Source: Lentisphaerales bacterium
Lineage (GTDB): Bacteria; Verrucomicrobiota; Kiritimatiellia; JAUXFM01
Length of the DNA: 43,584 nucleotides
Assembly: GCA_030622955.1 (NCBI GenBank)
Contig: JAUXFM010000011.1
Location: 1 to 43,584 of the forward strand
Direction: 5' to 3'
The position numbers and the translations under genes are program-made. Below the pieces are notes generated by a model. It had not been told where the DNA came from, did not search any database, and saw only the letters and a program-made list of their open reading frames with translations. Numbering within the stretch: the stretch's first letter is position 1; each line of letters begins with the position of its first letter. This document shows positions 4,034-43,584 of the stretch, in pieces.

Positions 4034-4318
4034 ATGGAAAATGATTCGAGCAATGCGATGGTTGTCGTGTTTGCCGCAATTGTGGCAATTCTCTTCTGGG
4101 GCGGCGCGGCTTAGCTACTGTTCTATGTCCCTGTCCAGGGGGAAATGCTGGCTGATTTTGGAGAACCTCTTTCGTCGGGCATGCAGATCCAACTGAACGC
4201 CAGCAACTTTCTCAAGAGATATGCGTTGTTCCTGTCACCGATCTTTTTGATCATTGCTGCGTTGCCGTTCCATTTGTCGTCAAGCAACAATTGGGCGAGC
4301 AGAGCTTCTGTATGTTGA
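4034..4318 (+). pseudogene. Broken membrane protein, resembling the N-terminal part of a type II secretion F-like protein
   Basis: The ATG at 4034 has an AAGGA ribosome site about 9 nt upstream and opens a 26-codon frame ending at an in-frame TAG (4112-4114) just after a transmembrane segment. The same frame continues without interruption for 67 codons, with segments FYVPVQGEMLADFG and NFLKRYALFLSPIFLI, to a TGA at 4316-4318. Read through the amber codon this is one two-helix membrane protein. The pattern (W-G-G, V-P, M-ADFG, then a second helix) resembles small T2SS F-domain proteins in PVC genomes. The amber codon, plus the abrupt fusion with the GH20 remnant at about 4290-4312, indicate decay. 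The family call is tentative. A functional 26-residue peptide is an alternative. Confidence 0.4.
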
Positions 4319-5402
4319 ACGTATTTCATTGGCACCTCACAGATGATCAGGGATGGCGAATTGAAATTAAGAAATATCCCAAACTGACGGAAATTGGATC
4401 CAAACGTTCTGCAACACCAATTCCGTCAAATCGCAAGAGATTAGACGGGACCCCATACGAAGGGTTCTATACCCAGGAAGAGATCAAAGACGTTGTCGCT
4501 TATGCCGCTGAGCGTTTCATCAGGGTTATGCCCGAAATTGAAATGCCAGGGCACTCGGGTGCCGCTTTAGCAGCCTATCCAGAGCTGGGTTGCACAGGAG
4601 GTCCGTATGAGGTCCGTCAACGATGGGGTATCGGCAAAGATGTCTATTGCGCAGGAAACGGAAATGTATATGTTTTTCTAGAAAATGTGCTGGCAGAAGT
4701 TCTCGACTTATTTCCAAGCGGATTTATCCACATTGGTGGTGATGAATGCCCAAAAGACAGGTGGAAGACCTGTAGCAAATGCCAAGCGATGATTAAGCAA
4801 GAAGGATTACATGGCGAGCACGAGTTACAGAGCTACTTCATAAAAACAATTGGGGAATTCCTCGCCAAGAAGAATCGACGTCTTATTGGATGGGATGAAA
4901 TCCTAGAGGGGGGGGGCTTGCCCCAAATGCCGCGGTCATGAGCTGGAGAGGGACCGGAGTTAAACGCGCTACAGCCGTTGCGACGGCGGGACATGATGTG
5001 GTTATGTCACCTGGTAGTCATTGCTATTTTGACAAATACCAATCGCGACACAAGAAGTCCGAGCCTCCGGCCATAGGCGGATTCTTGCCACTTAGTAAGG
5101 TTTACTCTTTCAACCCAATCCCAAAAAAGCTTCCACCAGCTAAAGTCGGACACATCCTTGGAGCACAAGGCAATGTATGGACAGAATACATCCCCAATAG
5201 TAAACAGGTAGAATACATGGCGTTTCCGCGTGCATGTGCTCTTTCCGAAGTGTTGTGGTCAGCACCTGAGTTACATAACTATGATGATTTCTTGAGGCGA
5301 CTTGAGCCGTCGTTGCGGCGCCTTAGATTACTGAAGGTTAATTTCAGAAATCCGAGGATGGATATTAAAACTCTCCGACAAAAGAATTCACCTGACAAAT
5401 AA
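4291..5402 (+). pseudogene. Beta-N-acetylhexosaminidase (GH20) remnant: 5' truncated and frameshifted
   Basis: The reading starts in the middle of the GH20 barrel at LNVFHWHLTDDQGWRIEIKK. The N-terminal GH20b domain, any signal peptide and the first barrel strand are missing. Catalytic HIGGDEC is intact (Asp151/Glu152 counting from 4291). Frame 1 ends at a TGA at 4939-4941. The second half continues from 4938 in another frame with MSWRGTG and NVWTEYI, ending at 5402. The break lies at a run of nine G (4908-4916): adding one G or removing two restores EGGLAPNAAVMSWRG, the expected family sequence. GH20 enzymes release terminal GlcNAc or GalNAc. With the 5' deletion it is almost certainly non-functional, although the G-run shift alone could be a sequencing error. 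Confidence 0.85.
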
Positions 5403-5427
5403 TGGGCATGCCATTATTTGCAGGTGA
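5388..5427. repeat. 40-nt near-perfect palindrome over the stop codon of the GH20 remnant
   Basis: The arm TCACCTG-(A)-CAAATAATGG pairs with CCATTATTTG-CAGGTGA, giving 17 bp with a single bulged A, around the 5-nt loop GCATG. It contains the GH20 stop codon. As RNA it is a very stable hairpin, but it lacks a T-run. It may be a terminator, or a scar or end of a mobile or repeat element, given the truncated gene on one side and an orphan segment on the other. Confidence 0.6.
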
Positions 5428-5722
5428 TCCTGGACCTCTGTGCCGGGCATGGCGCGGCACTTACGAAGTGAAACTCCCCGTTCCTGGTATAGGAGAAGCC
5501 GAAGGGCAACTGCGTCACCGCGAGGTAGATGTCAGCCGAGGGCATAGCAGTCGACGGAAATGAGCCGGGGGATGTCGACAACCCGTGTAAACGAAGAAAC
5601 CGGAGAGGATTCACCACGACAAAGGCCTGAACCGCATACAGGGCTAATAGCTTCATCGAACGTCGATCTGTGAATCTTCGCAGAGAGGGCAGAAAGCCCG
5701 AGGTTAAAAAAGCGCTGCCAAC
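5428..5722. other. Intergenic segment with no recognisable gene
   Basis: Nearly 300 bp between the palindrome and the tRNA-Leu. A minus-strand open frame runs across it into the tRNA gene (5752 down to 5414, 112 codons), but its sequence shows no family I know and its N-terminus is encoded by tRNA sequence, so I do not call it. Two GTCGAC hexamers are present. A T6 run just downstream of the tRNA 3' end (minus strand, near 5706-5711) could help end tRNA transcription. The segment could be degenerate repeat or element sequence. Confidence 0.4.
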
Positions 5723-5808
5723 TGGTGCTCGGGAGAGGACTTGAACCTCCACAGCCTTGCGGCTACTAGACCCTTAATCTAGCGCGTCTGCCATTCCGCC
5801 ACCCGAGC
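5723..5808 (-). tRNA. tRNA-Leu, anticodon AAG
   Basis: A complete class II tRNA including an encoded CCA (5723-5725). The acceptor GCTCGGG/CCCGAGC pairs perfectly. The D-stem is GCG/CGC. The anticodon stem CTAGA/TCTAG encloses the loop TTAAGGG, so positions 34-36 are A-A-G (complement of 5773-5775). The variable arm AGCC-GCAA-GGCT and T-loop TTCAAGT follow. The long variable arm and G36/G37 fit leucine. A34 would need deamination to inosine for wide decoding; bacterial Leu tRNAs normally carry GAG, UAG, CAG, UAA or CAA. Confidence 0.92.
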
Positions 5809-5824
5809 GCAGAAAGGAAACAGG

Positions 5825-5853
5825 AATATAATGGGTGCGTCCGTGCGGTTCAA
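5825..5853 (-). promoter_or_regulatory. Sigma-70-type promoter for tRNA-Leu
   Basis: On the minus strand, TTGAAC (complement of 5848-5853), a 17-bp spacer and TATATT (complement of 5825-5830). Transcription would start near 5817, a few bases before the tRNA 5' end at 5808. The box sits in the short gap directly after the stop of the upstream gene. Confidence 0.6.
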
Positions 5854-5856
5854 GCT

Positions 5857-7488
5857 TTAGTCGCCAATTCTAAAGCGAATCTCATGAACTGACCCGCTCG
5901 CAACAAACTCAAGCTCGAGTCGCTCTGCCCCGGAAAGGGCCTGTATCCGCTTTTTTATGGCTTTGAGCTTCTCGCGCTGATCCCGTTTTTTCGCTGTCGT
6001 CGGACGCACCTGCAAAGCCAGGATATCGGGCAAAACAGCAAATGCATCACCAGTCTTCGCAAGATCAGACCAGCCATAAGCAGCGCATTCCGATTCTTCC
6101 AGACCCGCCATCCACTGCGCTTCCACCGGCACCTCGTCCCACGGTGTCAGCAAACCCTCGAGCAGCCCACGCAACACACCATAGTTGCTCGAAACAATCA
6201 GCCACCCACCACAGACGGTGTAACCAACCGTTTCATCTACCTTGAACTGCGCATAATCACTCTCAGCCGCACTCTCAATCGAAACAACCGTATGATGCCC
6301 GACACGCAATGGATGCGGGATCAGCTTCCAGCCATGCACGTTGTTCAGGTTGCTCAACAGGTCAGACATCGCGGCCACCGACTCCTCAACACTCTTAACC
6401 TGTACAGCCAACAACAAGGTCGGAACCTTTGTCCCCTTGATCTGATCACTGTAATTCCCACCAAACAACGTACGGAGCCGCCCAGAATTTTCGCCAGTCA
6501 ACACAGCGGCCAATACATAAGGATTCTTAACAAGATGCTCAGTAAGCAAGGCATCCGCTTCTCCAATCCAACGTATTCGCGCACACTCAATGTGCGGCCT
6601 GACAACATTCCAGGGCGCAACAATCATCGCGTCTGGCTTGTCTCCAAGCAGCTGACGCGGAAAAGCGAGATCCAGGCCATCGGCCAGCGATAAGGGCCCT
6701 GATTGCACAGGCGCCCAACGTAACATGCCATCAATCGCTTCACCATCGACAACACGACAACTATAGGAAACGAAGAAGGGCAGGGCGCAAGTGCCGGGTG
6801 ACGCGATATAGGAGCGATAGAAGCCTTTTACTGTGTCGGTTTCATTCCACAATTCCTGAACATCTGCCAGGCAAGGTGTAGTTCTCAATGACCCCGTGGC
6901 CGCGACACCTTCAATGATCACCATTGACTCATGGAAGATATCGAGCATGTAGGCTACGGCGCCGGGATCGGTGGACAAACAGGCGAGCAACATTCCGTCA
7001 ACAACCGCGAAAGAAAAGCGCCTGCCCGATTCATCGACCACCTTTTTTGAGTGCCAGATTTTGTAGCGCCCCTCATCTTCTACCCGTTCAACCCCCTTAA
7101 CCAGGCCCAGGTTCAGGGCGCACCGAAAAAACTGGCTTTTCCCGCCCAACCAGCTGCCGAAGAACCAGGTTGCGTCCGCGTCGGGGCCAAATGATGGCGA
7201 ATATGCCGCCACAATCCGTTTTCCGCCAACCTTGTCGAGCCAGCTCCCAATACCCGAGACGGCATCAGCGTCGACCAGCTCATGATCAAGCAGCATCTGC
7301 TGAAAGAGCGGACCATCCGCAATTTCTCCCCAGTCCTCGGACATGTTATCGACAACACAGAGGAAACGAACATTCGCAGGAAATGCGGAATACAGATGCG
7401 GCCCATTAAAAGGGAAACAGAACACCCACAGCACACCTAGCACTGCGGAAAGAGAAGAAACAATGCGTACTGTCAGACGATGCTTCAT
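5857..7488 (-). CDS. Membrane-anchored DUF3352-like protein of unknown function
   Basis: 543 residues from the ATG at 7488; a TTG at 7545 would add 19 residues. Neither has a clear ribosome site, and I prefer the ATG because it gives a normal K/R head before the hydrophobic helix (about residues 9-27, VRIVSSLSAVLGVLWVFCF). The rest is predicted to be extracytoplasmic. Repeated alpha/beta sections with 'GGKRIVAAYSP', 'VVDGMLLACLSTDPGAVAYML' and 'VCGGWLIVSSNYGVLRGLL' resemble DUF3352-type proteins, whose function is unknown. The C-terminus is a basic coiled region followed by two strands. It is downstream of pyrK-pyrD on the same strand, but the 150-bp gap argues against obligatory co-transcription. 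Family membership is a resemblance only. Confidence 0.65.
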   Translation of the reverse strand: MKHRLTVRIVSSLSAVLGVLWVFCFPFNGPHLYSAFPANVRFLCVVDNMSEDWGEIADGPLFQQMLLDHELVDADAVSGIGSWLDKVGGKRIVAAYSPSFGPDADATWFFGSWLGGKSQFFRCALNLGLVKGVERVEDEGRYKIWHSKKVVDESGRRFSFAVVDGMLLACLSTDPGAVAYMLDIFHESMVIIEGVAATGSLRTTPCLADVQELWNETDTVKGFYRSYIASPGTCALPFFVSYSCRVVDGEAIDGMLRWAPVQSGPLSLADGLDLAFPRQLLGDKPDAMIVAPWNVVRPHIECARIRWIGEADALLTEHLVKNPYVLAAVLTGENSGRLRTLFGGNYSDQIKGTKVPTLLLAVQVKSVEESVAAMSDLLSNLNNVHGWKLIPHPLRVGHHTVVSIESAAESDYAQFKVDETVGYTVCGGWLIVSSNYGVLRGLLEGLLTPWDEVPVEAQWMAGLEESECAAYGWSDLAKTGDAFAVLPDILALQVRPTTAKKRDQREKLKAIKKRIQALSGAERLELEFVASGSVHEIRFRIGD

Positions 7489-7641
7489 GGTCAGTTGACG
7501 AAGTCGCTGCAACTCCGAAATGCGAATATCTCTAAATAGGTCCAAATGTTCTAAACAAGCAGTTGGACTCTGCGTTTACCGACAAATTCCCGGTACCTGG
7601 TTTCATGCTTGGCACATTCGTGCCTGTTTTGGATTCCGGAA

Positions 7642-8586
7642 TTAGAAATTTGGAGTTCCTGCCGCAGGCAGGTCAAGACTGCCCACGATCTCTCCTATGC
7701 TCCCGAGCCCGTTCTCGATCAAGTAGGCCTCGATCCCGTCGATCACGGAAAGGACCGTGGATGGATCCGTAAACGTTGCCGTGCCAACAGCAACAGCCGA
7801 TGCGCCCGCAATGATGAATTCCAGCGCGCTGCCGCCACTTGTTATACCACCCATCCCAATCACAGGGATTTCCACAGCCGATGCCGCCTGCCATACAAGT
7901 TTCACCGCAACAGGACGAATTGCCGGCCCCGTAAGACCGCCGATCGTGTTGGCCAAAGCCGGCTTTCTCTTGCCAACATCAATGACAAGACTGGGCAAAG
8001 AATTGATCAGAGAAATTGCATCAGACCCACAGTTCTCCGCGATCTTCGCGAACTGGCCAATATCGGTAACAGCAGCCGAAAGTTTCGGAATGATCGTCAG
8101 ATCCGTGGCTTTTCGGACCGCCGTGATAACTTCTTCGGTCATCTTGGGATCCGTTCCGAACGCGATCCCGCCTTCCTTGATGTTCGGACAGGATATGTTC
8201 ACTTCAAGGCCCGCAACACCCTCGACATCGCTCAGTCGTTTTGCCACCTCGGCATACTCTTCGACCGTCCTGCCCCAGATATTCACGATTACTGGTGTGT
8301 CAAATCCGCGGAGGAACTTCATGTAGGTATCCACGAACCCGGCAACCCCCGGATTCTGGAGTCCTATCGCATTCACAATGCCACTGGCTACTTCAACAAT
8401 GCGCGGGGTGGGGTTCCCTTCATGCGGTTCCAGGCTGATCCCCTTGACGACAATTGCGCCAAGCCTGTTCAAATCGATCAAGCCGGCATATTCCGGCCCG
8501 TACCCGAACGTTCCCGATGCAACCATCACCGGGTTCTTCATTTCAATCGCGCCAATCTTGACGGCTATATCTGGTTTACCAATCAT
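7642..8586 (-). CDS. pyrD: Dihydroorotate dehydrogenase B, catalytic subunit
   Basis: 314 residues, the normal length for class 1B PyrD. It oxidises dihydroorotate to orotate with FMN in the cytoplasm (pyrimidine biosynthesis) and passes electrons to PyrK and then NAD. Visible motifs are the FMN-binding start NPVMVASGTFGYG (18-30), KGISLEPHEGNPTPR, the active-site stretch VNISCPNIKEGG with catalytic Cys133 (class 1 uses Cys), KLSAAVTDI (usually KLSPNVTDI, so two residues differ) and the C-terminal phosphate-binding GMGGITSGGSALEFI. The gene lies 82 bp downstream of pyrK on the same strand, which supports the NAD-dependent type B enzyme. Confidence 0.95.
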   Translation of the reverse strand: MIGKPDIAVKIGAIEMKNPVMVASGTFGYGPEYAGLIDLNRLGAIVVKGISLEPHEGNPTPRIVEVASGIVNAIGLQNPGVAGFVDTYMKFLRGFDTPVIVNIWGRTVEEYAEVAKRLSDVEGVAGLEVNISCPNIKEGGIAFGTDPKMTEEVITAVRKATDLTIIPKLSAAVTDIGQFAKIAENCGSDAISLINSLPSLVIDVGKRKPALANTIGGLTGPAIRPVAVKLVWQAASAVEIPVIGMGGITSGGSALEFIIAGASAVAVGTATFTDPSTVLSVIDGIEAYLIENGLGSIGEIVGSLDLPAAGTPNF

Positions 8587-8668
8587 AATTAGGCTCTAGC
8601 CCTTTACCAGCCGCCGGTTGTGATAAATCGTTCCGGCTCGGCAACTCTCCGAAATCCCAAATGGTCCT

Positions 8669-9448
8669 TTATTCCCATATAATGTCACTCGCATCAAAAA
8701 CGGGGCCTTCCTTACAGACCCTGACATATTCAATTTTGTCGCCCTTCTTCACCTTCTGGACACAGGCCAGGCATGCGCCTACACCACATGCCATGTTGCG
8801 ATCCATGGAAAGCCAGGCCTTCCAGCCATGCTTCTTCGCCATTTCGGCAATTGCCTTGAGCATACCATGCGGACCGCAGGAATAGATGACGGGGGTGGCG
8901 TCGGCTTTGCCCTGGCCCACCCAGTCCTCGACCAGGTCGGTGACGCGGCCTTTCATGCCCATTGAGCCATCCTCAGTGCTGATGCGGAAATCCCATTCGA
9001 GCATCCTGAACTCTTCAGCGCAGAGAATATGGCTTTTGCTCGAACTACCAACCATCATGATCCCCTTGACCGGTGAGCGCTTGGCGAAGAAATGAAGGGG
9101 GGCAACACCATAACCGCCGCCGATCAGCAGCGGCAGCGTTCCTTCTCTCGCCTGCGGGAAGCGCTGGCCGAGCGGGCCCATGATGCTTATCTCATCGCCC
9201 TGTTCCGCATACGTGAGCGCAGCTGTCCCTTTGCCAACAATCTTGAATATGACTGAAAGTGATGTGTCGTCAGCGTCCAGGACACTAAATGGTCGGCGCA
9301 GGACCGACTCAGCAAGCTTCGGTACCTGCAAGTGGATGAACTGGCCGGGCCCAACGGCTTTCGCGATAGCCGGCACTTCAATGGAAAGCAGGCGATACCC
9401 GCCCTTGAGTTCCTCGTGCCTTAATACCCGCCCTTGTTCAATCTTCAA
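8669..9448 (-). CDS. pyrK: Dihydroorotate dehydrogenase B, electron-transfer subunit
   Basis: 259 residues of the ferredoxin-reductase-like PyrK family. The FAD domain contains RRPFSV (51-56). The NAD domain begins with LLIGGGYGVAPLHFF. The C-terminal 2Fe-2S ligands are C221, C226, C229 and C245 (MACGVGACLACVQK...RVCKEGPVF). It moves electrons from PyrD FMN through FAD and the iron-sulfur cluster to NAD+. The start is a TTG at 9446-9448 preceded closely by AGAGGTGG, a strong ribosome site, and no ATG in the first part fits better. pyrK precedes pyrD, as in many operons. Confidence 0.95.
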   Translation of the reverse strand: MKIEQGRVLRHEELKGGYRLLSIEVPAIAKAVGPGQFIHLQVPKLAESVLRRPFSVLDADDTSLSVIFKIVGKGTAALTYAEQGDEISIMGPLGQRFPQAREGTLPLLIGGGYGVAPLHFFAKRSPVKGIMMVGSSSKSHILCAEEFRMLEWDFRISTEDGSMGMKGRVTDLVEDWVGQGKADATPVIYSCGPHGMLKAIAEMAKKHGWKAWLSMDRNMACGVGACLACVQKVKKGDKIEYVRVCKEGPVFDASDIIWE

Positions 9449-35020: not shown

Positions 35021-35058
35021 TTGCATTACAACTGGTTTAGTCCTAAACTACAATAGTT
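35021..35058 (+). promoter_or_regulatory. Promoter with overlapping palindromes upstream of the MarR regulator
   Basis: TTGCAT (35021-35026), a 17-bp spacer and TAAACT (35044-35049). GTTTAG-TC-CTAAAC (35035-35048) and AACTA-CAA-TAGTT (35046-35058) are perfect inverted repeats covering the -10 and start region. MarR proteins bind such palindromes, so autoregulation, and control of the divergent GH2 gene, is plausible. Confidence 0.5.
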
Positions 35059-35072
35059 AAGGATTGAACTAT

Positions 35073-35576
35073 ATGAAGTCATTTCAGACAGATGATTTAG
35101 CGGATGAGCTCAGGACTGATGATATTGGCGAGATAACGGTTATTCAGATTCTCAAGGTGGCTGATTTGCTTTTGCGCATAGGTGATGCGCATGTATTTAC
35201 CGGGGATCTTTCGCAGGCACAGTTCAATATTTTGATGATCCTCAAGCGGTACGGTAAGGATGGTATGTCACAGAAAGACATTCTTTCCCGGCGGGTCTCT
35301 ACCAAAGGTAATCTCTCTATACATATTACCAATCTGCTGAAGAAGTCCTACATCACCAGGCGAATATCGAAGACTGATAACCGCTTGCATGAGATCCGTC
35401 TTGCAGCAAAAGGCCGCCGCCTGCTGGAGAAACTGGAACCGAAATACTTCAAAAAGATCAGAGAGCTGACGGACGAGCTGTCAGAAGGGGCCGCCGCGAA
35501 AACTCTCTTATTGTTGACTCATCTCCAGGCGAAGTGCGGAGAGCTGCTTTGCCGGGATCAAGTAGAGGAAGCATGA
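35073..35576 (+). CDS. MarR-family transcriptional regulator
   Basis: 167 residues from the ATG at 35073, which has AAGGA at the right distance; a TTG three codons earlier is not needed. The central winged helix-turn-helix reads LSQAQFNILMILKRYGKDGMSQKDIL followed by KGNLSIHITNLLKKSYITRRISKTDNRLHEIRLAAKGRRLLE. That is the recognition helix and the wing with the D-R motif. MarR proteins bind DNA as dimers and usually respond to small phenolic or lipophilic ligands. It is the first gene of the cluster that follows (speD-like gene starts 14 nt after its stop), and palindromes overlap its promoter, so it probably controls the whole operon. Confidence 0.9.
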   Translation: MKSFQTDDLADELRTDDIGEITVIQILKVADLLLRIGDAHVFTGDLSQAQFNILMILKRYGKDGMSQKDILSRRVSTKGNLSIHITNLLKKSYITRRISKTDNRLHEIRLAAKGRRLLEKLEPKYFKKIRELTDELSEGAAAKTLLLLTHLQAKCGELLCRDQVEEA

Positions 35577-35590
35577 AAGGAAGTACAATT

Positions 35591-35995
35591 ATGAAAGAGT
35601 CAGATATATCAGCTATACCGAAAGAAGAGAGGGCATTCGGGTATCATCTTATGCTTGATTGTTATAACTGCGCTCCGGATAAACTGGATAGTATTGATGC
35701 ATGTTACGAGTTTCTCGAAAATCTGGTAGAGGAGATAGGGGCGGAGAAACAGACGCAGCCTTACGTGTTCCGAACGCCGGAGCACTTTAAGGGGAAAGAA
35801 GGATTGTCCGGCTGGGTTCCGATTGTGGAGTCAGGCATATCAATTCATACACTGACGGAGTCGCGGTTCGTTTCTGTAGATGTCTACAGCTGTCGACGGT
35901 TCGATAACGACAGTATCGCGGCTTTTACGGGTAATTTCTTCGAGCCGGGAGAGATTGAGACCAATTTTGTTCTGCGCGGCAGGAAGTATAGCTGA
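35591..35995 (+). CDS. SpeD-family protein (S-adenosylmethionine decarboxylase-like)
   Basis: 134 residues from the ATG at 35591 (GGAAG 7 nt upstream). It matches small bacterial SpeD proenzymes: GYHLMLDCYNC, then VESGISIHTLTES and VSVDVYSC. Cleavage would occur at Glu80-Ser81, making the pyruvoyl group from Ser81; His86 and Cys101 keep the same +5 and +15 spacing as in the Thermotoga enzyme. The residue right after Ser, normally His (ESHIS), is Gly82, so substrate binding may differ. SpeD makes decarboxylated AdoMet, an aminopropyl donor, but some SpeD homologues decarboxylate other amino acids. No aminopropyltransferase gene lies in the window, so the product may feed the unusual cluster instead of spermidine. 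Confidence 0.8.
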   Translation: MKESDISAIPKEERAFGYHLMLDCYNCAPDKLDSIDACYEFLENLVEEIGAEKQTQPYVFRTPEHFKGKEGLSGWVPIVESGISIHTLTESRFVSVDVYSCRRFDNDSIAAFTGNFFEPGEIETNFVLRGRKYS

Positions 35996-36005
35996 GGCAT
36001 TGAAT

Positions 36006-37091
36006 ATGCAGGTGCATATTACAGCAAATGGATTTATGAAGCGCCGCCATCATCTGCTCAAGGAAATCTACGGATCGGATCCGCTTTATAGGGATACTAC
36101 AACAACTCTTCTCGATATGGTTATGAGATCTTCAGGTCAGACCGTCCGGCATGCCAGACAGATTCCCGTAACGGTTCACGATGGACGGACACCTTTATGT
36201 TCGGCAGTGTTGATATTGGCTGATAAGTGCCCCGACATGCTTCAGGTGGGCTTCTTTGAAGCGGTTCCAGATCGTACTGATGCAGTATCGGCGTTCATGG
36301 ATCTGGTGCGTGACACAGCTCTTGAATGGGGGGCGGCTAATGCTGTCCTGACGATGAACGGCCACGTGAACAACGGTCTGGGCCTTCTGGCCAGTGCCTG
36401 TGACCATGTGCCATCCTTCGGGTCTCCATACAACCCGCTCTACTATATAGATTACCTGTCCCCTTATGCATCTTCACACACAGATATGATTTCATATCGA
36501 TATGATCTATCAGTGGCGAATCTCAGCAGGGCACGAAGGGCAATAGACCGGATTGCGAAGAGGTTCAGTGTAAGGCATGGCAACTTCAGGGATCTACGCA
36601 AAGAGATTGCGATATACACAGAACTGAACAATAAGTGTTTTGAAGATCATCCGCTGTATTTTGAACGCCTGCCGGAAGAAGACTACGAGCTTTTCAAGTC
36701 CTTCGGTCCATTCCTGAAAGAGGAGAACTTCCTGGTGCTGGAGCATGACGACAAGCCAATTGGCTTCCTTCTATGGTATCCCGATTTTTGTGAATTGCTC
36801 AAGACGGGTCAGGCCCTGGGTTTGACTGCGGCGTTGAAGTACCGGCTTCCTGGAAATAGGAGCTCTTGTTTCAAAATAGCAGAACTCGGAGTCCTGCCCG
36901 AATATCACGATTCGGGAGCGGTGATCGCCCTTATAGACAAGTGCATAGGAACCGGACTCGAGCAGGGCTATTCATATTGCGATTCAGGATGGATCTTTGA
37001 CAGCAACGTGAGGTCAAAAGGTATAGCAGGAAGATGGGCCAGAGAATCCACGTCACTGTACAAGGTCTTTACGATGGATTTGAGCGCATGA
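36006..37091 (+). CDS. GNAT-fold acyltransferase (YghO-like), cluster gene
   Basis: 361 residues. The start is the ATG 11 nt after the speD-like stop, with GAGG upstream; a longer frame overlaps speD and is not supported. The C-terminal half has the GNAT-like pattern: ENFLVLEHDDKPIGFLLWYPDF, FKIAELGVLPEYHDSGAVIALIDKCI and a final CDSGWIFDSNVRSKGIAGRWARESTSLYKVFTMDL. That last part resembles the 'E.gWv.e.N......l....g...y..y..y' end of YghO-type N-acyltransferases. The N-terminal domain is also alpha/beta but less clear. Family members transfer acyl or amino-acyl groups to amines. Its place beside a SpeD-like enzyme suggests an amine substrate, which is inference. It overlaps the next gene by 4 bp. 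Confidence 0.6.
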   Translation: MQVHITANGFMKRRHHLLKEIYGSDPLYRDTTTTLLDMVMRSSGQTVRHARQIPVTVHDGRTPLCSAVLILADKCPDMLQVGFFEAVPDRTDAVSAFMDLVRDTALEWGAANAVLTMNGHVNNGLGLLASACDHVPSFGSPYNPLYYIDYLSPYASSHTDMISYRYDLSVANLSRARRAIDRIAKRFSVRHGNFRDLRKEIAIYTELNNKCFEDHPLYFERLPEEDYELFKSFGPFLKEENFLVLEHDDKPIGFLLWYPDFCELLKTGQALGLTAALKYRLPGNRSSCFKIAELGVLPEYHDSGAVIALIDKCIGTGLEQGYSYCDSGWIFDSNVRSKGIAGRWARESTSLYKVFTMDLSA

Positions 37092-38080
37092 AATCTGGAA
37101 CCACAGATACATTCACCAGTGCGGCCGACCTGCCGAAGATCTGGGACGCAGGTGCAGGTGACAATCCTTTTCTAAAGAGGAGCTTTCTTGAAGTTCTCGA
37201 GAAGGCCAACCCCTGCGGGCAGGAGTATCATCTGACGGGCGGCGCAGACGGTGCTTCCGTGGCTGTAACGTATCAGCACCGGCTGAATCTCCTTACCTAT
37301 GGGCCCGGTTCTCTCAAACTACCTGTTACAATAGTGGGTATTCCCTGCTCCGTTTCCAAATCGGGTCTGTCACTACCCGAGAAGACTGGCAGAGCGATGC
37401 AGGAATATCTGCTGGCACTTCCCGGAACCAAACTCATTCTCAACGCCGACAAGGGCTGCAGGCTTCCCGGCTTCGCGGCGGGCAGAGCCCTCCCGACATG
37501 CAGGCTGGATATTCGGTGGCGCAGTTTCGACGAATATCTGGAGCAGATGAGGAGCCACTATCGATATCGAATCACCAAAGCGCAGGAAAGAGGAAAGGTG
37601 CTGGCTACGACGGCTATTGAGAGGGATTCGTTCGGAGAAGAACAGTACCGGCTCTACAGAAACGTTTTCAAGAGATCGAAATACAAAATAGAAGAACTCA
37701 GTCAGGAATTCTTTCAGACTGCATCGGCAACTTTGGTTGGGTTCAAGATTGACGATAAGCTTGTCGCTTCTGTTCAGCTACTCAGGAATGGCAAGGAGCT
37801 GATATTCATGTTTGGCGGCATGGACTACGCCGTGGCAAGAGAACGGGATCTCTATCTTAACATGCTTCTCTATATTATCCGGCGAGCCATTGAGGAGGGA
37901 TGTGAGGTCCTGGATCTTGGCCAGACGGCGGAGGATATGAAACAGAAACTGGGCTGCCAGCTCGTGGAAAAGACTATGCATGCTGCGCATTCCGGTAAGG
38001 TGGGAGACTTCTTATTGAAGCGGGCAGCAGGACTGCTGAGCTACAACGGGAGGAGTCGTGATTACAATGTCTTCAGATAA
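37088..38080 (+). CDS. FemAB/GNAT-fold acyltransferase-like protein, cluster gene
   Basis: 330 residues from an ATG overlapping the upstream stop (ATGA). The second half has the pattern of FemAB-like or Acetyltransf_6 proteins: MRSHYRYRITKAQERGKVLAT, then SATLVGFKIDDKLVASVQLLRNGKELIFMFGGMDYAVARERDLYLNMLLYIIRRAIEEGCEVLDLGQTAEDMKQKLGC. These folds move amino-acyl or acyl groups onto amines. The partner is unknown. The coupling with the previous acyltransferase suggests successive or alternative acylations of one product. The C-terminus overlaps the first radical SAM gene by 14-23 bp depending on its start. Confidence 0.6.
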   Translation: MKSGTTDTFTSAADLPKIWDAGAGDNPFLKRSFLEVLEKANPCGQEYHLTGGADGASVAVTYQHRLNLLTYGPGSLKLPVTIVGIPCSVSKSGLSLPEKTGRAMQEYLLALPGTKLILNADKGCRLPGFAAGRALPTCRLDIRWRSFDEYLEQMRSHYRYRITKAQERGKVLATTAIERDSFGEEQYRLYRNVFKRSKYKIEELSQEFFQTASATLVGFKIDDKLVASVQLLRNGKELIFMFGGMDYAVARERDLYLNMLLYIIRRAIEEGCEVLDLGQTAEDMKQKLGCQLVEKTMHAAHSGKVGDFLLKRAAGLLSYNGRSRDYNVFR

Positions 38081-39398
38081 GCAGAAAGTTCTTCTCGTAA
38101 GACCGGAACAGGATACAAGGTTGCTTCACGCGGTCAGGATGATCACCGAACCCCTGGATCTGGAGTATCTTGCTGCAGTGGCGACATCTGAAGGCTGGGA
38201 GTTCCTCATTCATGATCCTCTGGTTACTGACGATCCATTTGAGCTGGCTTTGGAGCGCTTCAATCCTGATATAATCGGGATAACGGGGTACTATCCGACC
38301 AAAGATCGCATGATTGAATTTGCATCAATCGCGAAAGAGCACAGGTCCAATGTGCTCACAGTTATTGGCGGAGTGCATGCGGAAATTAATAATGAGGATT
38401 TCCAGAATGATTCTGTAGATCTGATAGTACATTCCGGCGGGACGGAAACCTTCAGGAATATCCTCAGATTGGCAGGGAACGGCGCAACAACAGAAGGGAT
38501 CGCCGGTACTTGCCACAGGACGGTCAAAGCGGGATGGATCCGCAACGAGGAGGCCTCTTCCGATTTGCTGAATCTGCCTCTGCCGGATAGAACCCATTTC
38601 CATGAGAATATAAACAAATTCCGTTATCTCCACTACGGACCGGTCGCTCTTGTCAAAACTGCCTATGGCTGTCCTCACAACTGTAGATTCTGTTATTGCC
38701 GGCTTCTGAACGGGGGTAGGTATTCGGTACGGTGCATAGAGGATGTCGTTGATGAGATCGAGGCTATAGCATGCGATCGAATATGGGTTGTCGACGATAC
38801 ATTCCTTATCGATCGCAAGAGAGTAGTTGCCTTGGCGAATCTTCTCAGGGAGCGAGCAGTGAAGAAGGAGTTCATTATATACAGTCGATCTGACTTCATT
38901 GCGCAGAATCCGGACATAGTGCCGATTCTGTCGGGGATGGGTGTCATCGATGTGATAATCGGTTTCGAGGCAGTGGAGGAGAAGCAACTGACAGGTTACG
39001 ATAAGCAGGCGACCGTAGATGAAGGGCGCAGAGCGATCCGCCTGCTCAAGGATTCCGGCATAGAGAGCACAGGTCTCTTCATAATGGACATTGATGCGGA
39101 GCCGCGCGATTTCGGGATCCTTCGTAAGTGGATCGCGAAATCGGGCCTGACGACATACACGCTTTCAATTCTAACTCCCTTTCCCGGGACGGAGCTATGG
39201 GAGCGATACAGCGACCGGTTGGTTACGAGGGATTGCCGGAAATGGGATCTCTCGCACCTGGTGATGAACCCCGGAGGCATGCACTGGCTTCTGTTTCACG
39301 CGTTGATGATATGGATGCACCTCGCAGTTTTGTTCAAGAACCGGAAGATGAGACGACATGTGCTTCTGCATGCTGGCTTCAGGCAGGTATGGTCATGA
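38067..39398 (+). CDS. B12-binding radical SAM protein 1
   Basis: 443 residues from the ATG at 38067; a GTG three codons earlier is equally close to the GGAGG, so the start is uncertain. The N-terminal Rossmann B12-binding-like domain starts KVLLVRPEQD...ITEPLDLEYLAAV, with NPDIIGITGYYP and TVIGGVHAEI. It lacks the DxHxxG histidine. The radical SAM domain has CPHNCRFCYC (cluster Cys 205, 209, 212 counting from the GTG) and later IWVVDDTFLIDR, IIGFEAVEE and LSILTPFPGTELW. Such proteins methylate, rearrange or couple unreactive carbons using cobalamin and a 5'-deoxyadenosyl radical. Substrate unknown. The C-terminus has a hydrophobic stretch near 415-430. Confidence 0.88.
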   Translation: MSSDKQKVLLVRPEQDTRLLHAVRMITEPLDLEYLAAVATSEGWEFLIHDPLVTDDPFELALERFNPDIIGITGYYPTKDRMIEFASIAKEHRSNVLTVIGGVHAEINNEDFQNDSVDLIVHSGGTETFRNILRLAGNGATTEGIAGTCHRTVKAGWIRNEEASSDLLNLPLPDRTHFHENINKFRYLHYGPVALVKTAYGCPHNCRFCYCRLLNGGRYSVRCIEDVVDEIEAIACDRIWVVDDTFLIDRKRVVALANLLRERAVKKEFIIYSRSDFIAQNPDIVPILSGMGVIDVIIGFEAVEEKQLTGYDKQATVDEGRRAIRLLKDSGIESTGLFIMDIDAEPRDFGILRKWIAKSGLTTYTLSILTPFPGTELWERYSDRLVTRDCRKWDLSHLVMNPGGMHWLLFHALMIWMHLAVLFKNRKMRRHVLLHAGFRQVWS

Positions 39399-40030
39399 GT
39401 GAGAAGATATGGGATTTCTGGGCCAAACATTATGATCGGCTCTGGGTCCAGCGTGTATCACTTGGGCCGACTCGCGATGCGATTATAGACAATCTCCCAA
39501 AGGGCGATAGCGGGAAGCTGGCGCTTTTGGATATGGGTTGCGGTACGGGGCAGCTTATGGGTTCGTTGTTGGCGACACCTACTGTAGCTGAGGTGGACTA
39601 CAGGGGCGTTGATCAATCGAGGTATATGATTGCGGAAGCGCAGAGGAAATACCCTTTTGGCACTTTCATCACATCATCATCTGAAGACTACGATGGAGAA
39701 GAAGGTTTCTTCGATGTGATCGTGTGCGCTCATTCCTTCCCATATTTCGAGGATCACAGGAAAATGATGTTGAGATTCAGGTCTATGTTGAAGGATGACG
39801 GGTGCCTGATAATCGCGCAGGCATCGATGAATACGATCTATGACAGGATTGTGTTATCTACGGTTAAACTGACGACCTCCAGCGCCAGTTACTACAGCAG
39901 GGTAGATATGCGTTCAATGGTTGATGGTATATTCAAAGTCTCACCTGTGGAAATAAGGATAAACCCGGCATTCCTGATGCCTTCGATATTCCTATTCAAA
40001 TGGGATTTGAGCGAGGGAGATCGTGCATGA
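39395..40030 (+). CDS. Class I SAM-dependent methyltransferase, cluster gene
   Basis: 211 residues from an ATG overlapping the previous stop (ATGA). The AdoMet-binding fold is clear: motif I LALLDMGCGTGQL (42-54), then YRGVDQSRYMIAEA (acidic loop Asp), FFDVIVCAHSFPYFED and MLKDDGCLIIAQ. It is small, a single Rossmann domain with no extra domains. Class I methyltransferases modify O, N or C in many small molecules. It sits between radical SAM genes, so it probably tailors the same product. The downstream gene overlaps it by 4 bp with its own GAGGGAG site. Confidence 0.9.
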   Translation: MSEKIWDFWAKHYDRLWVQRVSLGPTRDAIIDNLPKGDSGKLALLDMGCGTGQLMGSLLATPTVAEVDYRGVDQSRYMIAEAQRKYPFGTFITSSSEDYDGEEGFFDVIVCAHSFPYFEDHRKMMLRFRSMLKDDGCLIIAQASMNTIYDRIVLSTVKLTTSSASYYSRVDMRSMVDGIFKVSPVEIRINPAFLMPSIFLFKWDLSEGDRA

Positions 40031-41400
40031 AGATTGTGTTGGTAAGACCATGCCCCTCTGCTGAGACTATAGGGCTCCAGCATGTGATGATTTGCGAACC
40101 GCTGGAGCTTGAGTATTTGTGCTCCGCGATTGATGATCTGGGACATGAGACGACAATTGTCGATATGATCCTGGAGAAGGCTTCCATTAAACAATTCATT
40201 CAGGAACTTCAACCCGATGTTCTGGTCGTAACCGGCTACATAACACATGTAGAGATTGTGAAGAACTATTGCCGGACGGCGAAAGAACTGCTGCCCGGTT
40301 GTCGGACTATTGTCGGCGGGGTGCACGCAGAGGTTGTGCCTGAAGATTGGGAAGACAGCAGCATCGATTATATAGTCAGCCGGAATCCGATTGATTCATT
40401 CAGGCAGATTATCTTGTCTATGGGAGGGCAGCAGTGCGAACTGTCCGGTGTCTGGAGGCCCGGCTGTGAGCTTGCGCCGGGGAACCGGTCCTTCGATCAC
40501 GCTTTTCCAGACCGCGCGAAGGTGGAGCGGTATCGGTCGAGATACTATTACCTCTTCCATAACCCCTGCGCGCTGATAAAGACATCTTTTGGCTGTCCCT
40601 ATAAGTGCGAATTCTGCTTCTGCCGGCAGATCACTGGCGACGAATATTTCACGAGAGATATCGACAGTGTCATTGAGGAACTGAAGAGTCTTCCAGAAAA
40701 GGACATATATATCGTAGACGACAACTTCCTTGTCTCCAGGGAGCGGCTGGAGGCATTTTGTGATGCCATTGAACGCGAGGGTGTGGCGAAGAAATACCTC
40801 ATCTATGGTCGGTCAGACTTTATCGCGGCAAATGAGGACATTATTGCGAGATTGAAGGAATGCGGGCTGCGGGCTGTGATTGTTGGTATAGAGTCATGCC
40901 GTGCGGATGAGCTCAAGGGATATAACAAGAACAGTGATGTCGCCTCGAATGAAGCCGCGGTGGAGATCCTGCAACGATATGATATCGATTGCTATGCTAC
41001 GCTCATCCTGGGGATGGACTGGAAAGAGTCAGATTTCAAGATGCTTGGCAGATGGCTCCGCAGGCTGAAACTTACGTATATTAATCTTCAGCCTTTCACT
41101 CCGTTACCTGGGACGCCGATGCTTGAGAAATATAATGACGGTCTCATTGTCCCGCGCACTGACTATGAAAAATGGGATTTGGCTCATCTTGTGCTTGCTC
41201 CGACACAAATGTCTCAGGCTCGTTATTATTGGAACATAGTCAAGCTCTACCATTGGGTCACCATGCGGCCGCAGAATATCCTCAAGTTGCTTTACCGGCA
41301 TGGACCGCGTGAGAATCTCAAGTTGTGGCTGGGCTCTGTCCGGGTCACCCTGCAGTATCTCAGTAGAATCAGGAGGCACCTGAGTGGCAAAGAAGCTTAA
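40027..41400 (+). CDS. B12-binding radical SAM protein 2
   Basis: 457 residues. The start ATG overlaps the methyltransferase stop and has GGGAG upstream. The layout equals protein 1: KIVLVRPCPSAETIGLQHVM..EPLELEYLCS, a Rossmann B12-like domain with DVLVVTGYITHV and TIVGGVHAEVVPEDW, and then a radical SAM domain with CPYKCEFCFC (Cys 190, 194, 197). IYIVDDNFLVSRERLEAFC, VIVGIESC and LTYINLQPFTPLPGTPML follow. It is a clear paralogue of protein 1, sharing the unusual 'EPL.LEYL' N-terminus and the KWDLAHLVLAPTQMS-like C-terminal motif. Role unknown; a second reaction on the same product is the simplest idea. Confidence 0.88.
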   Translation: MKIVLVRPCPSAETIGLQHVMICEPLELEYLCSAIDDLGHETTIVDMILEKASIKQFIQELQPDVLVVTGYITHVEIVKNYCRTAKELLPGCRTIVGGVHAEVVPEDWEDSSIDYIVSRNPIDSFRQIILSMGGQQCELSGVWRPGCELAPGNRSFDHAFPDRAKVERYRSRYYYLFHNPCALIKTSFGCPYKCEFCFCRQITGDEYFTRDIDSVIEELKSLPEKDIYIVDDNFLVSRERLEAFCDAIEREGVAKKYLIYGRSDFIAANEDIIARLKECGLRAVIVGIESCRADELKGYNKNSDVASNEAAVEILQRYDIDCYATLILGMDWKESDFKMLGRWLRRLKLTYINLQPFTPLPGTPMLEKYNDGLIVPRTDYEKWDLAHLVLAPTQMSQARYYWNIVKLYHWVTMRPQNILKLLYRHGPRENLKLWLGSVRVTLQYLSRIRRHLSGKEA

Positions 41401-42709
41401 ACTGCTGTTAATTCAGCCCTCGCCTTATGATGGGGCAGGCAGACCGATAAAGAAAAAGAAGCTTTTCTTTGTGGGCCTGGCGCTTCCCTTGCTTGCGGCT
41501 CTTACTCCGGCTGATTGGGAGGTCGAGATATGCCTTGAGATTATCGAAGATGTTCCTTTTGGTACGGATGCCGATCTGATCGGCATCAGCAGTATGGGTC
41601 ATGGGATTATACGTTCATTCGATATCGCCCGCAGGTTCAGGGGGTTGGGCAAAACTGTTGTGATGGGCGGTTATATGGCCAGCCTTATGCCTGGGGAAAC
41701 GCGGAAGCATTGCGATTCAATCGTCATCGGCGATGCCGAGAACGTGTGGATATCCATGTTGGATGATTTCAGGGCGGGGAACCTGCAACAGATCTATCGC
41801 GGGGAACTGGAGGTCCTTGAAACACCGCTACCCAGGTATGATCTGGTGACATCAAAGAACATCGGCGACTTTCTGCCGATCCAGGCGGGCAGGGGATGCC
41901 CACATACCTGTTCCTTCTGTTCCATTCACTGTCTTTACCGCAGGCGCTACTACAGAAGAGATATTGTGGATGTGATGCGTGACATATCGCATGTCAAATC
42001 TCTCGGCTTCAGTAAATTCCTGCTTCTGGATGACAACATATATTCCGATCCATCATACATGATGGATCTGTGCCTTGAGATCAAGAAGCTCGGGATGACC
42101 TGGATGTCGCAATGTTCCATAACGATTGGCAGGAACAGGGAGCTGTTGAAAGTTCTTGCAGAGAGCGGCTGCATCACGCTCAGCTTCGGACTGGAGAGCA
42201 TATCGCGCGATAGTCTTGTTGCCATGGGGAAAGAGTGGGCTGACCCGGCAGAGTACCCAGCTCTTATCGAGGCCATTCGCGATGTCGGAATAGATGTGTC
42301 GACAGAGATGGTAATTGGCGCAGATGGCGATACACTTGATTCCATCAGGCAAACGGCAGAGTTCATCAACGATACCGGCATTGTCCTGCCGCGTTTCTAT
42401 ATTCTTACCCCCATTCCCGGAACGGATTTCTTTGCAGAGATGGAGGCTGCGGGCCGAATCTGTAACGATGATATATACTCATACAACGGGACAGAAGCCG
42501 TGCATGTTCCCGCGAACATGACGCCGGCAGAACTTACTGCCGCATATTGGGCTCTGTACAACGACGTCTTCTCACCAGGGAACATCCTGAAGAGGACAAT
42601 CCTGAACAGACGCTTGTTTAAGAGGCCCGGGCGGAGCATTTTCTATCTATTTGCCAACATGTTCTATCGTAGTCAGATAAGACGCAGAATTGCTCCGAAT
42701 ATCTATTGA
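41384..42709 (+). CDS. B12-binding radical SAM protein 3
   Basis: 441 residues beginning with GTG, 7 nt after GGAGG, and overlapping the previous gene by 17 bp. It is more distant from the other cluster paralogues: N-terminus KLKLLLIQPSPYDGAGRPIKKKKLFFVGLALPLLAAL, B12-like domain with DADLIGISSMG and VVMGGYMASLMPGE, then radical SAM motif CPHTCSFCS (Cys 172, 176, 179), LLLDDNIYSDPSYM, CITLSFGLES and FYILTPIPGTDF. This looks like the common 'B12-binding/rSAM/DUF4070' architecture of HpnJ-like and related enzymes. The reaction is unknown. A C-terminal basic region precedes the end. Confidence 0.88.
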   Translation: MAKKLKLLLIQPSPYDGAGRPIKKKKLFFVGLALPLLAALTPADWEVEICLEIIEDVPFGTDADLIGISSMGHGIIRSFDIARRFRGLGKTVVMGGYMASLMPGETRKHCDSIVIGDAENVWISMLDDFRAGNLQQIYRGELEVLETPLPRYDLVTSKNIGDFLPIQAGRGCPHTCSFCSIHCLYRRRYYRRDIVDVMRDISHVKSLGFSKFLLLDDNIYSDPSYMMDLCLEIKKLGMTWMSQCSITIGRNRELLKVLAESGCITLSFGLESISRDSLVAMGKEWADPAEYPALIEAIRDVGIDVSTEMVIGADGDTLDSIRQTAEFINDTGIVLPRFYILTPIPGTDFFAEMEAAGRICNDDIYSYNGTEAVHVPANMTPAELTAAYWALYNDVFSPGNILKRTILNRRLFKRPGRSIFYLFANMFYRSQIRRRIAPNIY

Positions 42710-42719
42710 GAGGTCAATG

Positions 42720-42739
42720 CTGTCCGACAAACCGGACAG
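42720..42739. repeat. Perfect inverted repeat in the only real gap of the radical SAM run
   Basis: CTGTCCG-ACAAAC-CGGACAG is a 7-bp perfect stem with a 6-nt loop, between radical SAM genes 3 and 4. It starts 10 nt after the gene 3 stop and ends 19 nt before the next start. It might attenuate, protect the RNA or bind a regulator. No T-run follows. Confidence 0.5.
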
Positions 42740-42758
42740 TAGTGTTGAGAGGTGTGGA

Positions 42759-43584
42759 ATGAAGATACTGTTAGTCAGACCTCCGCGTATAAAGAAAGCG
42801 ATCACCATCGGCGAATTCATGTTTTGCGAGCCCCTTGGCCTGGAGTGTCTCTATGCCGTACTCAGCCCGGACCATGATGTCCGGATTCTGGACATGATGA
42901 TTGAGGAGACCGACATTGCTGCGGAATGCCTCGAGTGGCGGCCAGATGTTCTGGGCCTTACTTCGCTATGCGTGGATGTACCCAATGTAATCAGGCTGGC
43001 CCGTGAAGTTAAGGCAGCGAATCCGGAGATAATCATCCTGGCAGGTGGGACGCAGACATTTGTTGAGCCCTCGGCATTTCATGACGAGGCCATTGACCAT
43101 GTACTTCAGTATACAACCACGGCGAATCTGCAGGCGCTCTTCGCATCGTTAAGCGAGGGCGGGCCTGTCCCCATGATCGAAGGGATAGAGAGCAGAGAGA
43201 ACGGATTCCGGTCAACAGGAGTCCATGGCCGTAATGAGTATATCGTGCCCGACATATCCTGCACAAAGGGATACCGCCGCCATTACAGCTATTTCGGGTT
43301 CAAGCCATGCGCGATCATCCAAACGTCTCAAGGCTGTAGCAAGCAATGCAGGTTCTGTCTGCGGTGGAGGATAGAGGGAGGGCATGAAGTGCCGCAGGAT
43401 ATGGATGTTGTTTTCTCTCAGATCCAGCGTGTTCCTGAACCGAGCATCATGATCCTGGATAACGATTTCCTTTGTGACGGGGGTCGTATCGATGCGCTAT
43501 GCGACAGGCTTGAAAAGCATAGTGTCAGGAAGAACTTCCTGTGTTACGGGAGTGTATGCAGCATACAGAAGAACCGGGAACAAA
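42759..43584 (+). CDS. B12-binding radical SAM protein 4 (runs off the window)
   Basis: At least 275 codons; no stop before the window end. The start ATG follows GAGAGG by 7 nt. The N-terminus KILLVRPPRIKKAITIGEFMFCEPLGLECLYAV is again the cluster type. A B12-like domain has RPDVLGLTSLCVDV and IIILAGGTQTFVEP, followed by CSKQCRFC (Cys 193, 197, 200) and the SIMILDNDFLCD segment. It is closest in layout to proteins 1 and 2. The remaining part of the radical SAM domain and any further cluster genes lie beyond the window. Confidence 0.85.
   Translation, partial: MKILLVRPPRIKKAITIGEFMFCEPLGLECLYAVLSPDHDVRILDMMIEETDIAAECLEWRPDVLGLTSLCVDVPNVIRLAREVKAANPEIIILAGGTQTFVEPSAFHDEAIDHVLQYTTTANLQALFASLSEGGPVPMIEGIESRENGFRSTGVHGRNEYIVPDISCTKGYRRHYSYFGFKPCAIIQTSQGCSKQCRFCLRWRIEGGHEVPQDMDVVFSQIQRVPEPSIMILDNDFLCDGGRIDALCDRLEKHSVRKNFLCYGSVCSIQKNREQ

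Follow-up and report, generated by a model that had tools for sequence, protein, structure and literature searches.

The DNA window analysed here, exactly 43,584 bp in length, is a whole contig (JAUXFM010000011.1) of the 2.65-Mb, ~91% complete genome of a Lentisphaerales bacterium. From position 35073 to the contig end it carries nine genes in the same (+) orientation, g1 to g9, the first two encoding a MarR-family regulator and a SpeD homologue and the last being cut by the end of the contig. We tentatively read this region as one copy of a widespread, undescribed biosynthetic cassette of anaerobes, complete except for the end of g9 and probably under MarR control.

Pfam searches agreed with the family labels given to the nine co-directional genes in a preliminary description of this DNA, which had been made from the sequence alone. 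The regulator g1 (35073 to 35576, ATG at 35073) matches MarR with 34.6 bits and g2 (about 35573 to 35995) matches AdoMet_dc, the S-adenosylmethionine (AdoMet or SAM) decarboxylase domain, with 73.4 bits. Two genes for GNAT-type enzymes follow: g3 (36006 to 37091), a predicted tandem-GNAT N-acyltransferase (Acetyltransf_1, 22.3 bits), and g4 (37088 to 38080), a predicted FemX-like double-GNAT aminoacyl/peptidyl transferase (Acetyltransf_6/FemAB, 50.9 bits). A class I SAM-dependent methyltransferase is encoded by g6 (39392 to 40030; Methyltransf_25/11, 50.3 bits). Radical_SAM and B12-binding domains were found in the products of g5 (38058 to 39398), g7 (40027 to 41400), g8 (41384 to 42709), and g9 (about 42759 to 43584), the B12-binding domain of g8 lying below threshold (27.5 bits, cut-off 32.1) and the radical SAM domain of g9 being interrupted by the contig end. 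All four thus belong to the general class of B12-dependent radical SAM enzymes.

Gene starts were revised using orthologue alignments and sequence inspection, moving g3 from 35880 to 36006 and g6 from 39128 to 39392. With these starts, adjacent genes overlap at six of the eight junctions (by 4, 4, 23, 7, 4, and 17 bp), as the preliminary description had it with "most overlapping by 4-23 bp"; the remaining two, speD-g3 and g8-g9, have gaps of 10 and 49 bp. Of the roughly 450 residues of g9, only about the first 275 are encoded. The last 100 bp of the contig are carried by no other contig, and since the contig itself ends at 43,584, the gene is truncated. At about 50 to 51%, the G+C content of the operon is that of the window, and a foreign base composition was rejected on this basis.

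Immediately upstream of marR, at 35035 to 35069 and overlapping a weak -10 element, there are two paired palindromes, GTTTAGTCCTAAAC and GTTAAGGATTGAAC, of the form GTTnA(A/G)nnnTnAAC, which are the only matches to this pattern in the 43.6-kb window. The same pair precedes marR at locus L049 of a related genome (positions 3120 to 3155), again as the only matches in that stretch, and the two MarR orthologues are 50% identical. Judging from these sequences, the pair is a good candidate for, and probably is, the MarR operator.

Searching 346 genomes of the class with g3 identified two strong orthologues, in G328 (53% identity) and G341 (38%), all others being at most 27% identical. G328, the Kiritimatiellia genome Arabian11_MAG_70, is the genome that harbours L049, where all nine genes occur in identical order and are followed by unrelated genes. 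The g9 gene in the window is 71% identical to its full-length counterpart, which is the last gene of the operon there. Because the L049 operon stops after g9, only the end of this gene is missing from the window.

To chart the distribution more widely, 84,980 species genomes were scanned with a g8 alignment, giving 15 loci from Kiritimatiellia/Verrucomicrobiota, Clostridia, Actinomycetota, and Marinimicrobia. A 391-genome sample of the clostridial class, searched with a floor of E 1e-130, contained 12 carriers, all scoring at least 574 bits. In a 388-genome sample of the window's own phylum the sole orthologue-level score was that of the window genome (787 bits), the rest reaching about 331 or less. 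The cassette is therefore rare but widely distributed. Together with the window, the 15 loci of the scan, 10 further loci (L110 is a duplicate of L063), and a record of Acetoanaerobium noterae DSL2 in which g3 to g9 stand in order, the collection amounts to 27 loci, mostly from metagenome bins and with organism names as in the records. Cultured Clostridia with the cassette include Fusibacter ferrireducens Q10-2, Anoxynatronum buryatiense Su22, and A. noterae. The gene set was thus found again at 26 other loci, a recurrence far beyond chance. The preliminary description had regarded a lack of conservation as the outcome that would speak against it, and the search gave the opposite, with one locus (L049) having all nine genes in order.

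Not all of the nine genes have the same standing. The four genes g3, g4, g7, and g8 are kept together in 26 of the 27 loci, the exception (L057) being a 4-kb fragment that holds g3 and g8 of the four. Genes of the g5 type are present in 22 loci, three of which have two or three copies, so that the range is 0 to 3 per locus; g6 was found in 16/27 and g9 in 8/27 (not counting a g9 fragment in L057). marR and speD are present at only two. The core of the cassette is consequently g3+g4+g7+g8, with g5, g6, and g9 as optional genes and marR and speD outside it as auxiliary ones. The biosynthetic operon proposed in the preliminary description holds as a conserved and apparently undescribed unit with a MarR gene and with radical-carbon and amide-forming steps, and has to be amended in that its nine genes are not equal members. 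Gene order varies between loci (g6-g7-g5-g8-g3-g4 in L056, for example). Pairwise distances of the four core genes correlate over 23 loci with r values of 0.81 to 0.93, which none of 999 Mantel permutations reached; this shows a shared history, be it by cotransfer or by vertical descent, between which the correlation does not distinguish.

The most conserved core gene is g8, with 53 to 76% identity across four phyla. The CxxxCxxC motif was kept in 82 of 82 cassette radical SAM members checked, including 26 of 26 for g5. When 101 radical SAM proteins were placed in one tree, g5, g7, g8, and g9 each formed a group made up only of cassette members (supports 98, 96, 100, and 100), the tree having been built by a quick method and containing some long branches. 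Among named families, HpnR (hopanoid C-3 methylase) and BchE are among the closest to g5, g7, and g9, with which they share the order of a B12-binding domain followed by a radical SAM domain as well as CxxxCxxC. However, scores against the HpnR profile (NCBIfam TIGR04367, cut-off 650 bits) were 161.5 for g5, 181.2 for g7, 55.9 for g8, and 96.0 for the truncated g9, and those against BchE (NCBIfam TIGR02026, cut-off 481 bits) were 131, 141, 63, and 26, respectively. Because these scores, 96 to 181 and 26 to 141 bits for g5, g7, and g9, are far below the cut-offs, membership of either family was rejected for all four enzymes. These proteins also form clades of their own, and no hopanoid or bacteriochlorophyll genes were seen beside them. 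More generally, no gene of the operon scored over a curated cut-off that would give it the name of a known family.

Ribosomally synthesized and posttranslationally modified peptide (RiPP), nonribosomal peptide synthetase (NRPS), and polyketide synthase (PKS) clusters with B12 radical SAM methyltransferases resemble the cassette in performing radical carbon chemistry on an already built scaffold, but genes for a precursor peptide, carrier, condensation enzyme, or ketosynthase were not recognised in the cassette. Neighbouring core genes of the window either overlap or lie no more than 49 bp apart, so there is no room between them for a RiPP precursor gene; at the other loci, the search covered open reading frames (ORFs) of 60 amino acids or more. 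B12 radical SAM enzymes carry out carbon chemistry that is open to few other enzymes, and finding up to five of their genes in a short operon that has no carrier-based core suggests unusual chemistry.

Two outside loci with near relatives of these enzymes are worth recording. The nearest kin of g8 outside the cassette include a gene of L123 (G074:C56:55001-66810, positions 5058-8831, minus strand) that lies between a FemAB-like gene and a gene for a serine palmitoyltransferase (Spt)-like enzyme, adjoined by a FadL-like transporter; this is likely another undescribed gene set. The nearest outside relative of g5, g7, and g9 is found in L121 (G015:C42:41001-61000) together with genes for a lipid A-type acyltransferase, a glycosyltransferase, a FabA-like protein, and ketoacyl synthases, which may form a cluster for an unusual lipid or polyene.

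The AlphaFold2 model of g3 is a tandem GNAT (predicted local distance difference test score [pLDDT], 90.5), with a glucosamine N-acetyltransferase, the clavulanate-pathway tandem GNAT, mycothiol synthase, and N-myristoyltransferase among its Foldseek matches. Indirect clues to a lipid link came from weak relatives within the same class. One of them (L037) has as neighbours a gene resembling Spt (601 bits) and one for a CerR-like reductase, another (L043) has an aminotransferase-class gene alongside, and others adjoin fatty-acyl ligases. The g3 profile aligns nearly full-length with the Spt-linked (E 6e-36) and fatty-acyl-ligase-linked (E 1e-32) tandem GNATs, whereas g3 and g4 give no such alignment with each other. 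In bacteria, ceramide synthesis involves Spt, an N-acyltransferase (CerS/bCerS), and CerR (PMC11324152, PMC11087976, PMC11334938). From its gene order, we infer that the L037 GNAT is a bCerS-type enzyme. g3 itself is related distantly, but over its full length, to tandem GNATs, one of which is flanked by Spt-like and CerR-like genes, an arrangement that recalls the bacterial ceramide synthase of Caulobacter (CC_1154/CCNA_01212). The difference is that profile identity between g3 and these relatives is 19% and that neither Spt nor CerR was seen in any cassette, so that the three ceramide genes do not occur together there. Further g3-like tandem GNATs flanked by two other ORFs were observed in Kiritimatiellia-class genomes at L030, L027, L031, L032, L034, L035, and L039; at L030 and L027, one of the two neighbours belongs to the fatty-acyl-CoA-ligase family, and Pfam gives no match for the other.

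For g4, AlphaFold2 predicted the double GNAT of FemX-type transferases (pLDDT 91.8). Its top Foldseek matches were the aminoacyl-tRNA-dependent peptide synthases Sbb17/Sba18, followed by FemX, A-PGS, and L-PGS, while a PDB sequence search with g4 gave no match at E 0.01. One lysine of the GQTxxxxKxxLG region is conserved in every member of the g4 alignment (A6) and may correspond to the catalytic Lys305 of FemX. GNAT-fold enzymes that depend on aminoacyl-tRNA join amino acids in the valanimycin, dehydrophos, and pacidamycin pathways (PMC12945691). g4 shares its fold with this FemX/Sbb17-Sba18/VlmA type but is only 9 to 16% identical and is partnered with B12 radical SAM enzymes, and its use of tRNA is a prediction.

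SpeD is the most conserved protein between the window and L049 (84% identity). It retains the processing residue Ser63 and the catalytic His68 and Cys83 (Thermotoga maritima numbering), with VESGISIHT...DVYSC aligning with AESHISIHT...DVYTC, and thus shares fold family, processing serine, and catalytic histidine and cysteine with the pyruvoyl decarboxylases SpeD, SpeDA, and SpeDC. In contrast to a canonical AdoMet decarboxylase, it scores 60.4 bits against a curated cut-off of 75.65 (NCBIfam TIGR03330) and reads HTLTE instead of HTWPE, lacking the proline taken as the one that separates AdoMet from arginine decarboxylase homologues. Some SpeD-family homologues have been found to have turned into ornithine or arginine decarboxylases, a proline distinguishes AdoMet from arginine decarboxylases, and the SpeDA/SpeDC examples sit in polyamine gene clusters (PMC10407285), whereas g2 sits in a radical SAM operon. 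This divergent homologue is the sole SpeD in the ~91% complete window genome, which also encodes SpeA (860 bits) and the carboxynorspermidine decarboxylase NspC (506 bits). The spermidine route through SpeA and NspC needs no SpeD. These two genes, the dehydrogenase of the route having been outside the search, point to a SpeD-free spermidine route in this genome.

At the clostridial locus L109, a divergent pyridoxal phosphate (PLP)-dependent amino-acid decarboxylase gene lies directly before g3 (LysA profile, 174 bits; cut-off, 298). It is a divergent paralogue, as the same genome carries two better LysA genes. Occupation of the same place by two unrelated decarboxylases, SpeD and PLP type, in different genomes suggests, on a small sample, that an amine building block is involved; as speD occurs in only two of the 27 loci, the pathway itself does not need a SpeD in the operon. 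MarR and SpeD seem to serve local regulation and the provision of an amine. The suggestion in the preliminary description that the pathway might start from an amine hence gains indirect support from L109, and its alternative of an aminopropyl unit does not, given the SpeD score and missing proline. The aminopropyl (SpeD-SpeE) reading is likewise unsupported by the spermine-synthase-domain matches of the window genome, which number six and sit in frames of 648 to 1102 amino acids, far longer than a standard SpeE; similar long ones are present in G328 and G341.

The explanation we favour, at a probability of roughly 45%, is that the pathway combines N-acylation of an amine by g3 with the addition, by g4, of an amino acid taken from aminoacyl-tRNA, and that the radical enzymes carry out methylation or cyclisation at unactivated carbons of what is probably a lipid-like product. 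Its lipid element draws on indirect clues, namely the Spt-linked and fatty-acyl-ligase-linked kin of g3 and the outside relatives of the radical SAM enzymes at L123 and L121. According to this model, MarR would bind the two palindromes upstream of marR and keep the operon repressed as long as its ligand is absent. The amine building block would be supplied or trimmed by SpeD here and by the PLP decarboxylase in one clostridium. g3 would transfer an acyl group, probably long-chain, onto the amine, g4 would join the amino acid, and g7 and g8 would next act on the carbon skeleton, with g5, g6, and g9 diversifying the product between species. The product would most likely be a cell-associated fatty-acyl/aminoacyl conjugate (lipoamino compound); a cell-associated product is favoured because no exporter gene recurs and there is no carrier-based core. 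A bolder proposal, which we regard as speculative, is that the cassette makes a new class of lipoamino or lipo-peptide compound of anaerobes without NRPS, PKS, or ribosomal precursor, in which an acyltransferase and an aminoacyl-tRNA-dependent ligase build the scaffold, two to five B12 radical SAM enzymes rebuild its carbons, and a SpeD of new specificity supplies the amine.

Several points weigh against the favoured model. The closest solved folds to g3 are glucosamine and mycothiol acetyltransferases, and GNAT folds carry many acyl donors. The lipid link comes from enzyme kin without support from cassette genes, and a chain-forming enzyme occurs in no cassette; nor is there a second, ceramide-synthase-like g3 relative shown in the window genome. 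Decarboxylases are found at just three of the 27 loci, and the GQT-x4-K-x2-LG motif, read as the FemX-type lysine region, was present in 20 of the 25 g4 proteins searched, some of which are fragments.

The chief rival of a cell-associated product is a small secreted pseudo-peptide, antibiotic- or signal-like, in which g3 would acylate or acetylate an amine head group, g4 would add amino acids taken from aminoacyl-tRNA in the manner of streptothricin-type pathways, and C-methylation or cross-linking of the result would fall to the radical SAM enzymes. The tRNA-dependent peptide synthases heading the fold matches of g4, two of its best matches having been solved with streptothrisamine, fit this well, as do the GNAT-fold enzymes of the natural-product pathways cited above and a patchy distribution with variable tailoring genes that resembles secondary metabolism. 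We nonetheless consider it somewhat unlikely, as no dedicated exporter or resistance gene recurs next to the cassettes, and a specialised antibiotic would be expected to have a narrower spread than one core over four phyla. The lack of recurring export genes would also agree with a modification of the cell envelope, in which g4, working like FemX or MprF, would target a peptidoglycan peptide or an aminoacylated phospholipid, and the radical SAM enzymes would change the group attached there. FemX, FemA, and aminoacyl-phosphatidylglycerol synthases are among the fold matches of g4, and the carrier phyla include both Gram-positive and Gram-negative envelopes; these fold matches are, however, generic to the superfamily, and murein or phospholipid genes do not recur nearby, making this explanation improbable.

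The HpnR/BchE likeness raises the possibility of a cofactor or tetrapyrrole-like pathway, in which the radical enzymes would have a ring system or a cobamide-like cofactor as their substrate and the GNATs would decorate it. While HpnR and BchE are indeed the named families that give g5 and g7 their highest scores, these do not exceed about 30% of the curated cut-offs, tetrapyrrole or cobalamin genes were not recognised among the neighbours, and no cobalamin or other riboswitch was found in the window or at nine loci, so we regard it as very improbable. It is also conceivable, if unlikely, that two functionally unrelated units merely adjoin, with marR-speD serving polyamine metabolism and g3 to g9 being the real pathway. 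The absence of marR and speD from the other 25 loci speaks for such a division, but two genomes whose proteins have diverged by as much as 50% retain the arrangement and the operator pair, a different decarboxylase holds the same place in L109, and the window genome has its own spermidine route. Either way, the status of g3 to g9 is untouched.

Consistent with the preliminary description, which knew of no pathway with this gene set, none matched it in Pfam, NCBIfam, the structure library, or the open-access papers covered, an incomplete literature in which no paper joining B12 radical SAM with FemAB/GNAT genes was found; within this scope the pathway is apparently undescribed. The conserved core defines the minimal gene set of a testable pathway family, and because the cassette occurs in cultured bacteria, gene knockout combined with metabolite comparison is feasible.

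As to the surroundings of the cassettes, among the first 15 loci there were no recurrent extra neighbours except in near-identical genomes and for generic families. In A. noterae only, an EamA-like transporter gene, identified by reading its sequence (L129, 2578-3633, plus strand), ends 11 bp before g3 and could be part of the operon. Related reverse-transcriptase-like proteins, also recognised by sequence reading, are encoded within or just after two clostridial cassettes (L104, 5872-7218, and L107, 7935-9152, both plus strand). Carriage by phages was rejected, as IMG/VR gave just two weak relatives (25 to 27%), and so was carriage by plasmids, the single match being a 2.6-Mb replicon filed as a plasmid. 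The A. noterae DSL2 replicon NZ_CP154629.1 (2.63 Mb, four annotated features), filed as plasmid pTPELB2, is by its size probably a chromosome. Elsewhere in the window, at 4291-5402 on the plus strand, two ORFs that overlap each encode one part of a glycoside hydrolase family 20 domain (profile positions 29 to 227 and 237 to 347), which is a frameshift either in the gene or in the assembly.

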